Positions 21,927-32,140 of a stretch of 32,140 nt of DNA are shown here, piece by piece. Numbering within the stretch: position 1 is the first letter of the stretch; every line of letters starts with the position of its first letter. Under the pieces are notes generated by a model. The model ran no database searches, was not told the origin of the DNA, and saw only the letters and a program-made list of their open reading frames with translations. The stretch is taken from assembly GCA_021825385.1 (NCBI GenBank), contig JAKAHU010000006.1, positions 1-32,140 on the forward strand, read 5' to 3'. This DNA comes from Chloroflexota bacterium (GTDB taxonomy: Bacteria; Chloroflexota; Limnocylindria; Limnocylindrales; CSP1-4). Both the position numbers and the translations under genes were made by a program.

Positions 21927-23009
21927 TCAGGGGCGGACCTCCGCCAGCGCGCCGTCCACGAAGACACGGATCTTCTCAGGCGGAAGCCGCACCAGCACAT
22001 CACCGGCCGGCAGTTTCCGGCCGCGGGCAACGCTCGCTTTGGCCGGATGACCGGCCACCTCGAGGGCGATCACGCGCACACTGCCCTGATCGAGGATCCC
22101 GGTCACCCTGGCGGCCAGCGTGTTCTCCCCCGGCTCGGTGGTCAGCTCGAGGTACTCCGGACGGACCCCGACCTCGATCCGGCCGGCGGGCAGTCGGACT
22201 GGATCGTAGCTCGATCGGAGCTTCGTTCCGCCGAACACGAGTCCATCTCCATCGATGCTGGCCGGGAACAGGTTCATCGCCGGCGAGCCGATGAAGTAGC
22301 CGACGTAGGTCGTGCGCGGGTATTCGAACAGTTCCTCGGGCGAACCGCGCTGGACGACCCGGCCTTCGCTCATCACCACGACCTCGTCGGCGAAGGTCAT
22401 CGCCTCGTTCTGGTCATGGGTGACGTAGACGACGGTCAGCCTGAACCGCTCGGTGATCTCCTTGATCTTGCGCCGCAGAAGGAACTTGAACTGGGGATCG
22501 ATGACCGTCAGTGGCTCGTCCATCAGGAGCGCCGCAACGTCCTCGCGGACCAGGCCCCGGCCGAGGGAAATGAGCTGTTTCTCGGCTGCCGTCAGGGCCC
22601 GTGCGGGCCTGCCCAGCTCGCGCTGGAGGTCGAGAACCTCGGCGATCTCGGCGACCTTTCGAGCGATCCGCGGACGCGGCCACTTCCGGCACACGAGCGG
22701 GAAGGCGAGGTTGTCGTACACGGACATCGCGCCGTAGATCACCGGGAACTGGAACACCTGGGCGATGTTCCGCCCCGCCGTCGGAAGATCCGTGACGTCG
22801 CGCTGGTCGAACAGCACCCTGCCCCGCGTTGGCCGCACCAGCCCTGAGATGACGTTCAGCATCGTCGTCTTGCCACAGCCCGACGGCCCCAGCAAGGCGT
22901 ACGTGCGACCGTCCTCCCACACCAGGTCGAGCGGGTTCAGGGCCCAGGCCGACTCGTGGGCGGACTGCGTGTACGTGTGGCCGACCCCTCTCAATGTGAT
23001 CCGTGCCAT
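21927..23009 (-). CDS. ABC transporter ATP-binding protein (sugar/polyol importer type), non-canonical signature motif
   Basis: Walker A LLGPSGCGKTTML, Q-loop QVFQFPVIY, Walker B ALLMDEPLTVID, H-loop VTHDQNEAM, but signature LTAAEKQLISLGRGL instead of LSGGQ; C-terminal TOBE-like region. Confidence 0.9.
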   Translation of the reverse strand: MARITLRGVGHTYTQSAHESAWALNPLDLVWEDGRTYALLGPSGCGKTTMLNVISGLVRPTRGRVLFDQRDVTDLPTAGRNIAQVFQFPVIYGAMSVYDNLAFPLVCRKWPRPRIARKVAEIAEVLDLQRELGRPARALTAAEKQLISLGRGLVREDVAALLMDEPLTVIDPQFKFLLRRKIKEITERFRLTVVYVTHDQNEAMTFADEVVVMSEGRVVQRGSPEELFEYPRTTYVGYFIGSPAMNLFPASIDGDGLVFGGTKLRSSYDPVRLPAGRIEVGVRPEYLELTTEPGENTLAARVTGILDQGSVRVIALEVAGHPAKASVARGRKLPAGDVLVRLPPEKIRVFVDGALAEVRP

Positions 23010-23035
23010 CGAATTCGGGTCTCCGAGCTGGGCGG

Positions 23036-24097
23036 TCAGGGTGCCGCAACGAGCCGGTCGTCCGGACCAAAGGCAAACAGCCGATCCGGATTGATCGCCA
23101 CCGGCACGTCGGCGTTGAGGGCGAAGCCGTGGACGCCTTCGATCTGCAGGACGAGTGGACCGAACGGAGTCTCAACGTGAATGAACGTTTCCGACCCCGA
23201 GACCTCCGAGAACGTGACCGTGCCCACCACGTCGTCGGCTGAGCCAAGTTCGAGCTCGACCGCCCGGATCCCGAATTGATACCTGCCCGGGCCCAGCCCG
23301 CGCATGTGGGCGGGAAGTGCCAGTGACCGGCCTCCGCCGAGGCGGATCAGACCGTCCTCGATCGCTCCGCTGACGACATTCATCGGTGGATCGTTGATGA
23401 CGGCGGCGACCGCAGTCGTGGCCGGCCGGTCGAAGACGTCGTCGGGTCGACCAGCCTGGAGCAGGCGCCCCTCGTGCATCACCAGGACGACGTCACCGAG
23501 CATCATCGCCTCCGCTGGCTCGGTCGTCGTGTACAGAACGATCGCGTCGCCTTGATCCGAGAACAGGCCCCGCAGCTCCTCGCGCATCGCCTCGCGCAGC
23601 TTGTAGTCGAGGTTCGCCAAGGGCTCGTCGAGGAGCAGCACGTCGGCGCTCCGTGCCAGCGCTCGCGCCAGGGCCACCCGCTGCTGCTGCCCGCCCGACA
23701 GCTGGCTCGGCCGACGGTCCTCGAAGCCGCGCAGGTTGACTCGCTCGAGGACGGCCCGCGCCCGTTCCCGCGCGACGTCGACCGACAGTCCGCGCCGCCG
23801 GAGCGGGAAGGCCACGTTGTCGAGGACACTGAGGTGCGGGTAGTTGATGAACTGCTCGTACACCATCGCCACGTCGCGTTCCCAGACCGGCCGGGTGAGG
23901 AACGACTCTCCGTCGAGCTCCAGCCGCCCGCTGTCGACCCGCTGGAGGCCAGCGATCGTGCGCAGGAGCGTCGTCTTCCCGGCCTGGGTCCGGCCGATCA
24001 GGGTATGCAGACGACCACGCTCGAGCGTGAAGCTCAGGTCGTCGAGATACCGGACCCGGTCGACCGTCAGGCTCAACTGTTCCGCGATCAGCGCCAT
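23036..24097 (-). CDS. ABC transporter ATP-binding protein (sugar/polyol importer type), H-loop His replaced
   Basis: Walker A LIGRTQAGKTTLL, Q-loop MVYEQFINYPHLSV, signature LSGGQQQRVALARAL, Walker B VLLLDEPLANLD, but YTTTEPAEAM where a VTHDQxEAM-type H-loop is expected. Confidence 0.9.
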   Translation of the reverse strand: MALIAEQLSLTVDRVRYLDDLSFTLERGRLHTLIGRTQAGKTTLLRTIAGLQRVDSGRLELDGESFLTRPVWERDVAMVYEQFINYPHLSVLDNVAFPLRRRGLSVDVARERARAVLERVNLRGFEDRRPSQLSGGQQQRVALARALARSADVLLLDEPLANLDYKLREAMREELRGLFSDQGDAIVLYTTTEPAEAMMLGDVVLVMHEGRLLQAGRPDDVFDRPATTAVAAVINDPPMNVVSGAIEDGLIRLGGGRSLALPAHMRGLGPGRYQFGIRAVELELGSADDVVGTVTFSEVSGSETFIHVETPFGPLVLQIEGVHGFALNADVPVAINPDRLFAFGPDDRLVAAP

Positions 24098-24106
24098 CTG
24101 CGCCCC

Positions 24107-24952
24107 CTACCGGATCGCACCGGCAAGGTGGCCGCGCGACAGGAACCGCTCCACGAGCACGGCGATGATCACGAGAGGGGTGACTGAAATCAGGGCCGAG
24201 GCGGACAGGGTCCACCATGGCGTGACCGACGAGTTCAGAGCCACGATCGCCACCGGCAGGAGCTGGGTCTGAGTGAAGGTCAGGGTGAAGGCGAAGAAGA
24301 AGTCGTTCCAGCCAAAGATGATGCAGAACAGACCGGCCACGATGATCCCGGGCAGGGAGTTGGGCAGGACGACCGACACGAACGCCCGCAGCGGCGTGCA
24401 GCCGTCGAGCATCGCCATTTCGTCGAGCTGGCGGGGCACGTTGTTGAAGAAGTCGACCATCACCCAGACCGCGATCGGCAGCAACAGCGCGATGTAGACG
24501 ACGATCAGCCCGAGCTGGCTGTCGAGCAGGCCCAGGAAACGCAGCATCAGGAAGAACGGGATGCCGAGCACGACCGGGGGCAGGATCCGCTGCGACACGA
24601 AGAAGAACACGATGTCCGAGTTCTTGGCGAAGCCAAGTTGATAGGTGAACCGCGACAGCCCGTAGGCCGCCAGGGTGCCCAGGACGATGCTGATCGTGCT
24701 CGCGCCGAGGGTCACGATGATGCTGTTCAGGTAGGGCTGCACGATGTCGATCCCGCCCGTGCCGCCGAACAGGCTCGTCCAGCCACTGAGCGAGGGCTCG
24801 TACTGGAGCCAGGGCAAATAGGTCGGTCCGCTGGTCACGCCGTTGACCGTCTTGAAGCTGGTGGTCAGAGCCCACAGGAACGGGGCCACGACGAACATCG
24901 ACCAGAGCACGATCGTGCCGTACTTGAGCACCAGGTACAGCCTCGACATCAT
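24107..24952 (-). CDS. ABC transporter permease (MalG-like, CUT1 type)
   Basis: MMSRLYLVLKYGTIVLWSMFVVAPFLWALTTSFKT... six hydrophobic segments, EAA-like loop 'QLDEMAMLDGCTPLRAFVSVVLPNSLPGI'. Start overlaps the previous gene by 4 nt (ATGA). Confidence 0.92.
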   Translation of the reverse strand: MMSRLYLVLKYGTIVLWSMFVVAPFLWALTTSFKTVNGVTSGPTYLPWLQYEPSLSGWTSLFGGTGGIDIVQPYLNSIIVTLGASTISIVLGTLAAYGLSRFTYQLGFAKNSDIVFFFVSQRILPPVVLGIPFFLMLRFLGLLDSQLGLIVVYIALLLPIAVWVMVDFFNNVPRQLDEMAMLDGCTPLRAFVSVVLPNSLPGIIVAGLFCIIFGWNDFFFAFTLTFTQTQLLPVAIVALNSSVTPWWTLSASALISVTPLVIIAVLVERFLSRGHLAGAIR

Positions 24953-25947
24953 GCCTTCCTCCCGGCCAGGACGCGGTTCAGGCCCCGAGCAATGAACGTC
25001 AGCGACACGATCATGATCACCAGGTACGTGAAGGAAAGCGAGGCCGCGTAGCCGATCTGGAAGTCCCGCAGGCCCCGGATGTAGATGTAGTAGCTCGTCG
25101 TCTCGGTCGCCGTTCCGGGACCGCCGGAGGTCAGGACGTAGACGGTTTCCATGATCTTCGAGGCCTCGATCAGGCGGATGATGATCGCCCCCACCGAGAT
25201 CGGGCCCATGAGCGGGAAGGTCACCCTGAAGAAGGTCCGGATCGGTCCGGCTCCGTCGATCGCCGCCGCCAGGAACGGCTCTCTGGGCAGGCTCAGCAGA
25301 CCCGCCAGGAGCAGCAGCACCATGAATGGCGTCCACTGCCAGATCTCCACGATCATCACGCTCACCACGGCCGGTCCGCTCGCCGTCAGCCAGTTCTGGG
25401 CCGGCAAGCCGAGGAGCGCCATGACGTCATTCGCGGGACCGAGTGACTCATGAAGGATCGTGCGCCAGATCACGGTCATGATCACCGGCGTCGTCATCAT
25501 CGGCACCAGGAACAGGACCCTGAAGAAGCGCCGGGCCTTGACCTCACGCCAGACGGCCAAGGCGAGCGCGAAGCCGAGCACGTACTCGATCACCACGGTT
25601 CCGACCGCAATCACCGCCAGCCGGCCCAGCGAAGCCCAGTAGCGCTGGTCGGCAAAGAGCCGCTCGTAGTTCGTCGTTGCAATCCAGTCGAGGCCGGGCT
25701 GAGAGACGTTCCAGGATGAGAAGCTGACCCGGATCGTGAACAGGAGCGGGAACAGGATGATCAGGAGCAGGACGATCAGGCCCGGCAGCAGGAACAGGAG
25801 CTTGTAGGGCCGAATCGACGAGTCGCCACCCGAGTGCCCGGAGCGACGCCCTGGTCGCCCCCCATCGGTGGCCGACCGATCAGTCGAGCCGGGTCCGGTC
25901 GAGGCCTGCCCGCCCTCCGCCACGGTCACTTGATCTTCCTGACCCAT
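24949..25947 (-). CDS. ABC transporter permease (MalF-like, CUT1 type)
   Basis: 'YKLLFLLPGLIVLLLIILFPLLFTIRVSFSSWN...EPFLAAAIDGAGPIRTFFRVTFPLMGPI'. ATG at 25947 is preceded by GGAGGA; the ORF-track start at 26025 abuts a strong hairpin and is less likely. Confidence 0.9.
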   Translation of the reverse strand: MGQEDQVTVAEGGQASTGPGSTDRSATDGGRPGRRSGHSGGDSSIRPYKLLFLLPGLIVLLLIILFPLLFTIRVSFSSWNVSQPGLDWIATTNYERLFADQRYWASLGRLAVIAVGTVVIEYVLGFALALAVWREVKARRFFRVLFLVPMMTTPVIMTVIWRTILHESLGPANDVMALLGLPAQNWLTASGPAVVSVMIVEIWQWTPFMVLLLLAGLLSLPREPFLAAAIDGAGPIRTFFRVTFPLMGPISVGAIIIRLIEASKIMETVYVLTSGGPGTATETTSYYIYIRGLRDFQIGYAASLSFTYLVIMIVSLTFIARGLNRVLAGRKA

Positions 25948-29225: not shown

Positions 29226-30035
29226 TCAGGAGCCGGCCTGACCAACCGCAAGGATGTTCGAGGATCGTCGAGCCGAGGCGACAACGAGACCGACCAGCCG
29301 GTCCGCCTCGAACTCGAACTGCTCTGGCGGCAGACCCACCGCGATCGCCGCCGGCGGGCGCCCGACAGGCGTGAGAATCGGCGCCGCGACGCAGGTCAGG
29401 CCTGACACCCCTTCCTCGAGATCGAGGGCGAAGCCACGGCGGCGGGTCAGCTCGAGGGACTCGGCCAAGATCTCGCGCCGCGTCACCGTGCGTGAGGTGA
29501 GCGCAACGAGCGGCCAGTCATCGAGCAGCTCGTTCACCTGGCGCTTGTTCAGGCTGGCCATCAGGACTTTGCCCAGAGCCATCGTATGAGCGGGACCCCG
29601 AAGACCGGGCCGCAACAGGCGTTGATGCTCGGCCCCAGGGAATGACTGGGCGGCTGCGATCGTGATCTCTCGACCCACCAGTCGGCCGATCACCGCCACG
29701 CCCCTCACGGCCGCGGCCAGGGAGGCTAACTCACCAGACAGCTCCGGGAACGGATCGAGGCGTCGGTCGAGGCGCGCCAGCAAGAGGGGGAGGCGGTCCC
29801 CGAGAGTCAGGGAGCGGCTTGCGGTCCGCGCCAGATACCCCTCGTCGAGAAGGGTGTTCACCAGGTGGTAGGTCGTGCCCAAACTCAGCCCCAGGCTGGC
29901 CGCCAGGGCCTTCGGGTAGACCTCTTCATGTTCGGCAACGAACTCGAGGACGCGCAAGGCGCGCTGCACCGTGGACAGGGCGTCCCGGTGCTGCGAGCCG
30001 TTCTGGTCACTGCTCGCGTCCGGACCGATGGTCAT
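29226..30035 (-). CDS. IclR-family transcriptional regulator
   Basis: N-term winged HTH 'STVQRALRVLEFVAEHEEVYPKALAASLGLSLGTTYHLVNTLLDEGYLAR', C-term effector domain 'HTMALGKVLMASL...RRRGFALDLEEGVSGLTCVAAPIL'. Confidence 0.94.
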   Translation of the reverse strand: MTIGPDASSDQNGSQHRDALSTVQRALRVLEFVAEHEEVYPKALAASLGLSLGTTYHLVNTLLDEGYLARTASRSLTLGDRLPLLLARLDRRLDPFPELSGELASLAAAVRGVAVIGRLVGREITIAAAQSFPGAEHQRLLRPGLRGPAHTMALGKVLMASLNKRQVNELLDDWPLVALTSRTVTRREILAESLELTRRRGFALDLEEGVSGLTCVAAPILTPVGRPPAAIAVGLPPEQFEFEADRLVGLVVASARRSSNILAVGQAGS

Positions 30036-31102: not shown

Positions 31103-32140
31103 TCAGGCCAGCCCGAAGCGCGCCAGGGCAGTCTGGGCGAGCAGTCCGCCGATCGCCAGGGAGCTCGTGGCCGCCGGGGAGGGCGCATTCCGGACGTGGA
31201 CAACGCGCTCCGATCCCCCGAGGTCGAAGTCGTCGAGCAGCCGCCCATCGCGACCGAGCGCCTGAGCCCGGACGCCCGACGGCCCGAACACCAGCTGATC
31301 GGCACGCAGCTCAGGGACGTAGCGCCGGAGCTGGGCCAGAAAGGCCGCCGCCGACCAGTCCCGCCACAGTTCGGCCAGACCGGTCCGCCAGTACCGAGCG
31401 GCAAGGCGCAAGAATCCCGGATAGGAGAGCGTGGCCACGAGATCCGTGAGGCGGACGTCGCGCCGTCCGTATCCGTCCCGGGCGAAGGCGAGGACGGCGT
31501 TCGGACCGGCCCACACGGCTCCGTCGATCCGCTTTGTCAGATGGACGCCCAGGAACGGGAAGCGGGGGTCCGGAACCGGGTAGATCAGCCCGCGCACGAG
31601 GTGCCGCGCCTCGGGCGTGAGGGTGTAGTAATCGCCCCGGAAGGGGATGATCCGGGGCACGTCCGGGCCGGTCTCGCCGCCCAGCGCTGCGACCCGGTCG
31701 GCCCACAGACCCGCGCAGGCGATCGCGCCGCGGGCCACGACCGCGCCGCGGGGGGTGGCCAGGACGACCTCGCCCCGACCCTGCCTGATCCCCGTCACCG
31801 CCCGCTCCGTTTCGATCCGCCCGCCGCGGGCCACGATGTCGTCGGCGAGGCCGTGAGCGACGTCCCGAAAGTCGACGATTCCGGCCCGCGGGCTCCAGAG
31901 CGCCCGCAGGCCGCGGGCGTGGGGCTCGATCTCCCGGATCCGCTCGGGCCCAACTGACTCCAGTCCCTCGACCCCGTTCGCCCGGGCCCGCTCCTCGAGC
32001 GTCGCCAGCCGCGCCAGCTCGTCCTCGGTCACGGCCACGACGAGCTTGCCGGGGCGCGAGAAGGGGATCCCCTTCTCCTCCAGGTATGCCTCCAGGAGCG
32101 CTCTGCCCTCCCGGCACAGACGAGCCTTCAGGGAGCCGGG
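31103..32140 (-). CDS. lhgO: FAD-dependent L-2-hydroxyglutarate oxidase-like protein, 5' end truncated by window edge
   Basis: Reading frame stays open to the edge (PGSLKARLCREGRALLEAYLEEKGIPFSRPGKLVVAVTEDELARL...); 'YPVPDPRFPFLGVHLTKRIDGAVWAGPNAVLAF', 'GPSGVRAQALGRDGRLLDDFDL...HVRNAPSPAATSSLAIG'. Confidence 0.9.
   Translation of the reverse strand, partial: PGSLKARLCREGRALLEAYLEEKGIPFSRPGKLVVAVTEDELARLATLEERARANGVEGLESVGPERIREIEPHARGLRALWSPRAGIVDFRDVAHGLADDIVARGGRIETERAVTGIRQGRGEVVLATPRGAVVARGAIACAGLWADRVAALGGETGPDVPRIIPFRGDYYTLTPEARHLVRGLIYPVPDPRFPFLGVHLTKRIDGAVWAGPNAVLAFARDGYGRRDVRLTDLVATLSYPGFLRLAARYWRTGLAELWRDWSAAAFLAQLRRYVPELRADQLVFGPSGVRAQALGRDGRLLDDFDLGGSERVVHVRNAPSPAATSSLAIGGLLAQTALARFGLA

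Follow-up and report, generated by a model that had tools for sequence, protein, structure and literature searches.

A GlpS/GlpT-type importer in Chloroflexota with a predicted heterodimer of one consensus and one degenerate ATP site

Introduction

In ABC transporters, each ATP site is built from the Walker A and B motifs and the A-, Q-, and H-loops of one subunit together with the signature of its partner, an established arrangement that is also stated in PMC7756269. MalK of the maltose importer and UgpC are canonical homodimers, and mutation of a single MalK subunit severely impairs maltose transport, as reported by Davidson and Sharma (1997). That result makes the need for two catalytic sites in such importers a question. 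Importer ATPases can also be heterodimeric without being asymmetric, as both DppD and DppF hydrolyze ATP (PMC12136057). GlpS and GlpT, the two ATPases of the glp importer, are already known, as is the importer itself (PMC7912956, PMC11505543). Here we analyze a stretch of 32,140 nucleotides from a Chloroflexota bacterium (the window), which encodes two MalK-like ATPases, A and B. An original prediction made from the letters of this DNA had proposed that they form one consensus and one degenerate ATP site.

Results

The two ATPase intervals given by the original prediction proved exact. It had left the strand unstated: both genes are read from the minus strand, and in both intervals the plus strand contains stop codons. 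ATPases A and B share 29% identity and are thus two different ATPase genes. NCBIfam held no model specific for GlpS- or GlpT-type ATPases, and the top matches there were to UgpC, below the cut-off. The AlphaFold2 model of B (pLDDT 91) had MalK of MalFGK2 as its top PDB match (2r6g_A, TM 0.85), and its TOBE_2 match scored 20.5 bits against a cut-off of 21. The features are collected in Table 1.

Table 1. Positions of the ATPase, permease, and neighboring features in the window
Feature	Position	Strand	Details or basis
ATPase A, GlpT-type MalK-like	23009-21927	minus	360 aa (P0001); ABC_tran, OB_MalK, and TOBE_2 profiles; tree
A degenerate signature LTAAEKQLISLGRGL, LTAAE at LSGGQ position	22551-22595	minus	alignment
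A intact H-loop YVTHDQNEAM	22398-22427	minus	alignment
A Asn at MalK Arg47 position	22854-22856	minus	N in 109/109
A D-loop TVIDP (SNLDA in MalK)	22494-22508	minus	same in 109/109 A proteins
ATPase B, GlpS-type MalK-like	24097-23036	minus	353 aa (P0002); profiles, tree, AlphaFold2
B intact signature LSGGQQQRVALARAL, LSGGQ	23657-23701	minus	alignment
B H-loop YTTTEPAEAM, Thr replacing switch His192	23504-23533	minus	T/S in 107/107
B Q-loop VYEQFINYPH, Glu replacing Gln82	23834-23863	minus	Glu in 3/107 B proteins
Permease P2, MalG/GlpQ-like	24952-24107	minus	start at MMSRLYLV
P2 EAA loop EMAMLDGC, Glu present	24398-24421	minus	alignment of P2 proteins
Permease P1, MalF-like	26025-24949	minus	profile, alignment
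P1 EAA loop LAAAIDGAG, without Glu	25246-25272	minus	alignment of P1 proteins
Solute-binding protein, SBP_bac_1, distant GlpV homologue	27735-26083	minus	profile, sequence comparison
Zinc-binding medium-chain alcohol dehydrogenase (ADH), first operon gene	28840-27788	minus	top PDB match 1h2b
IclR-family regulator, probable regulator	29226-30035	minus	profile, upstream position
tRNA-Met	21830-21756	minus	after ATPase A

Using E. coli MalK and UgpC from the K-12 genome for alignment and numbering, we examined the motifs of both proteins. ATPase A has intact Walker A (GPSGCGKTT) and Walker B (LLMDEP) motifs, Gln82 in the Q-loop VFQFPVIY, an aromatic A-loop residue, Asp158-Glu159, and His192, and its signature is not LSGGQ; the Walker motifs, Q-loop, H-loop, and signature agree with the original prediction. 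ATPase B carries Lys42 in its Walker A motif (GRTQAGKTT), Asp158-Glu159 in its Walker B motif (LLLDEP), and LSGGQ, and the predicted exchange of the H-loop His for Thr falls at H192 of the references. Further departures had not been foreseen: B has Val at the A-loop position (MalK Trp13) and so no aromatic residue there, Glu at Q82 in B, the D-loop TVIDP in A, and an asymmetry of the permeases that is linked to that of the ATPases. By standard ABC dimer geometry, the site formed by the Walker motifs of A and the LSGGQ of B would be intact, and every defect would fall on the site formed by the Walker motifs of B and the signature of A. From the motifs, neither an A2 nor a B2 homodimer would have a complete site. 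The proposed pairing of one consensus with one degenerate site thus follows from the motifs and this geometry, and the trait is fixed across the family.

Relatives were collected by scanning genome contigs, plasmid records, and further genomes, which yielded 107 loci with B directly followed by A. Complementary motif losses were found in all 107 adjacent pairs, from several phyla, and in 105 of them under the strictest definition of the signature; the other two A signatures, LTAGE and FTGAE, are not LSGGQ either. Both LSGGQ glycines are substituted in 105 of the 107 paired A proteins. Among all A proteins, the A-loop Tyr, Gln82, Glu159, and His192 are each present in 109/109 and a consensus LSGGQ in 0/109, most having LTADx. 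Conversely, LSGGQ, Lys42, and Glu159 are each present in 107/107 B proteins, with Asp158 also invariant, and His192 in none (Thr in 101, Ser in 6). Nine controls (MalK, UgpC, and seven other MalK-type ATPases encoded at these loci) kept R47, Q82, D158-E159, and H192 wherever these were covered, and their signatures were canonical apart from the minor variants LAGGD and ISGGQ. With canonical controls and 107 of 107 pairs from several phyla, the pattern is neither chance nor sequencing error. Because the pairs share a single ancestry, they represent long conservation and not 107 independent events. When Alphaproteobacteria were searched with B alone, 24 of 240 genomes gave matches, and A adjoined B in 24/24. 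Distances among A and B proteins were correlated (r = 0.95), which in part reflects shared organism history. In the class of the window, A was present in just 3 of the 151 genomes, a patchy distribution. An apparent B-A fusion at L048 was rejected because runs of N mark an assembly gap there; L042 lies at a contig edge. At L036:1188-2243, on a 3.6-kb contig, A was found with no B detected beside it; this A gene has an internal stop and is probably a pseudogene or an error.

In the family tree, A and B each form a single clade, set apart by a long stem of about 1.7 changes per column, and both clades divide congruently into types I and II, with support of 91/89 or better. This congruence indicates that the asymmetric pair is older than the split. 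Type I corresponds to the glycerol operon glpD-S-T-P-Q-U-V-K, as on pRL9 of R. johnstonii 3841. Type II has the order ADH-SBP-P1-P2-B-A and is the operon of the window, where an IclR regulator lies upstream. The resemblance to GlpS/GlpT noted in the original prediction therefore holds as homology, since glpS and glpT of pRL9 group with B and A, but the operon of the window is not the glycerol glp operon and belongs to a sister branch of it. Type II operons were found in Chloroflexota, Streptomyces, an Actinobacterium, Rhodoferax, Marinovum, a Rhizobiaceae genome, and many Pelagibacteraceae (SAR11; L015-L034); an Ensifer plasmid locus truncated by the end of its record shows P1-P2-B-A. No promoter was detected in a scan of the DNA upstream of the window operon. 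In the window, ftsH (named from sequence) lies beyond the tRNA-Met gene, and a homologue of L-2-hydroxyglutarate oxidase (31103-32038, minus strand; NCBIfam NF008726, above cut-off) lies upstream of the IclR gene and is probably unrelated.

The permeases are asymmetric as well. In the coupling helix of P1, the EAA Glu is present in 0 of 83 proteins, with Gln in 53/53 from type I operons and Leu or Met in 30/30 from type II; in that of P2, 81 of 82 proteins carry it. The residue aligned with MalK Arg47 is Asn in all A proteins (109/109) and basic, either Arg or Lys, in 100/107 B proteins. We take Arg47 of MalK to be the contact of the EAA Glu in both MalF and MalG. If this is right, the P2-B pair has retained the contact and the P1-A pair has lost both partners, which suggests that A would dock on P1 and B on P2. 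The coupling helix is received by the Q-loop region (F81-Y87 in MalK; PMC7658222), and this segment too is fixed yet different in the two ATPases, with FQFPV in A and YQQFINY in B.

Neither the window operon nor the other type II operons had glpD, glpK, glpR, or a DUF2160 gene (GlpU) nearby. The type II SBP matches GlpV (61 bits) and not UgpB or MalE, and P2 scores 117 bits against GlpQ and about 46 against UgpE and MalG. The AlphaFold2 model of the SBP is poor (pLDDT 55), and searches of solved structures returned no specific SBP relative. Type II SBPs are 51 to 78% identical to that of the window, so their cargo is probably common to them. Our best guess, held with low confidence, is a small alcohol or polyol, which the GlpV-like SBP would bring and the alcohol dehydrogenase of the operon would probably oxidize. 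Beside the type II operons of Streptomyces, Rhodoferax, and Marinovum lie regulators of the GAF or sigma-54-activator kind, and DhaR, below cut-off, is the only NCBIfam match of those in Streptomyces and Marinovum. Such DhaR-like or sigma-54-activator regulators adjoin type II operons outside Chloroflexota at L005:497-2170, L035:261-2177, and L038:209-2170.

Discussion

The locus has the features of a CUT1 (type I) importer: an SBP_bac_1 protein, two BPD_transp_1 permeases with EAA loops, and MalK-like ATPases with an OB/TOBE domain. A homodimer of ATPases is usual for CUT1, though not strictly defining, and here there are two ATPase genes, each lacking part of a site. Our main reading, to which we give a probability of roughly 0.7, is a MalFGK2-like importer with an obligate A-B heterodimer that has one consensus and one degenerate ATP site. 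In the consensus site, which would hydrolyze ATP, A would supply Walker A/B, Q-loop, and H-loop, and B the LSGGQ. The degenerate site would combine the LTADx-type signature of A with the Walker A/B motifs of B, a subunit that lacks both the aromatic A-loop residue and the His of the H-loop. Since B always keeps Lys42, Asp158, and Glu159, this site most probably still binds MgATP, and it would serve as a structural clamp that turns ATP over slowly or not at all, at a cost of about one ATP per cycle. Most probably, A sits under P1 and B under P2. Several points count against this reading. The degenerate site keeps its catalytic Glu, unlike many degenerate exporters (PMC7756269), so slow hydrolysis is possible, and B has a His, Tyr, or Trp five residues beyond the A-loop position that could stack on adenine. 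In addition, DppD/DppF shows that a heterodimeric pair of importer ATPases may have two active sites (PMC12136057), and the 107 pairs go back to one ancestral event.

The same invariant Lys42, Asp158, and Glu159 would also fit a reading in which both composite sites hydrolyze ATP, with LTADxKQ as a working signature and the Thr or Ser of B, along with the Walker B Glu, sufficing at the second site. The heterodimeric, bifunctional DppD/DppF is a precedent for such an arrangement (PMC12136057). However, DppD and DppF retain their functional motifs, whereas one site here is defective in signature, A-loop, and H-loop alike, and the replacement of both glycines in nearly every paired A protein makes two working sites unlikely. 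It is less likely again that the degenerate site is regulatory instead of a clamp, for example sensing a nucleotide or partner through the TVIDP D-loop and the C-terminal domains. That D-loop is invariant in A and unlike the one in MalK, and MalK regulatory-domain models match both subunits, with B just under the cut-off, but a clamp role suffices and has an exporter precedent (PMC7756269).

Multitask CUT1 ATPases do exist (PMC7658222), and the genome has other MalK-like ATPases, so that A and B might be separate homodimers or one of them might energize another importer in the manner of MsmX. We consider this very improbable, as neither homodimer would have a full site, B and A are strictly adjacent, and the permeases show a matching asymmetry.

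We give an even chance to the broader reading that importers of the GlpS/GlpT type make up a widespread and so far undescribed class of MalK-type transporters with one catalytic site and matched permeases (A with P1 lacking the EAA Glu, B with P2 retaining it), and that a second branch in Chloroflexota, Streptomyces, and SAR11 carries a probably alcohol-like cargo. We found no open-access paper describing the GlpS/GlpT asymmetry; the founding 2012 paper on the Rhizobium glycerol ABC importer (Ding et al.) lay outside that search, so priority is unsure. A natural MalK-fold importer in which only one site is intact would allow the two-site requirement to be tested and offer a bacterial system, amenable to experiment, to set beside degenerate-site exporters like CFTR and TAP. 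The analysis also points to an uncharacterized transporter branch in SAR11.

The closest known system is GlpSTPQUV of Rhizobium leguminosarum pRL9 (L009:13304-23366), which matches the window in its ATPase pair, in the order of the two genes, and in the motifs they have lost, and to whose GlpQ and GlpV the P2 and SBP of the window are related. It differs in that the window operon has ADH and IclR genes and the order SBP-P1-P2-B-A, lacks glpD, glpK, and the DUF2160 gene (GlpU), and has its A and B in a separate sister clade. MalFGK2 and UgpAEC (CUT1) share the MalK fold with its OB/TOBE regulatory domain, the two permeases, and an SBP, but their ATPases are homodimers, whereas the window has a predicted asymmetric heterodimer and one permease without the EAA Glu. 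RbsA and NupO (CUT2) are likewise from importers with one degenerate ATP site (PMC11466899); their domains are fused and have lost the Walker A Lys, and in NupO the Walker B acids too, whereas the window has separate subunits that keep the Walker residues. Finally, TM287/288, BmrCD, TAP, and CFTR also combine a consensus with a degenerate site through complementary motif loss (PMC7756269), but they have the exporter fold and have commonly lost the Walker B Glu that the window keeps.
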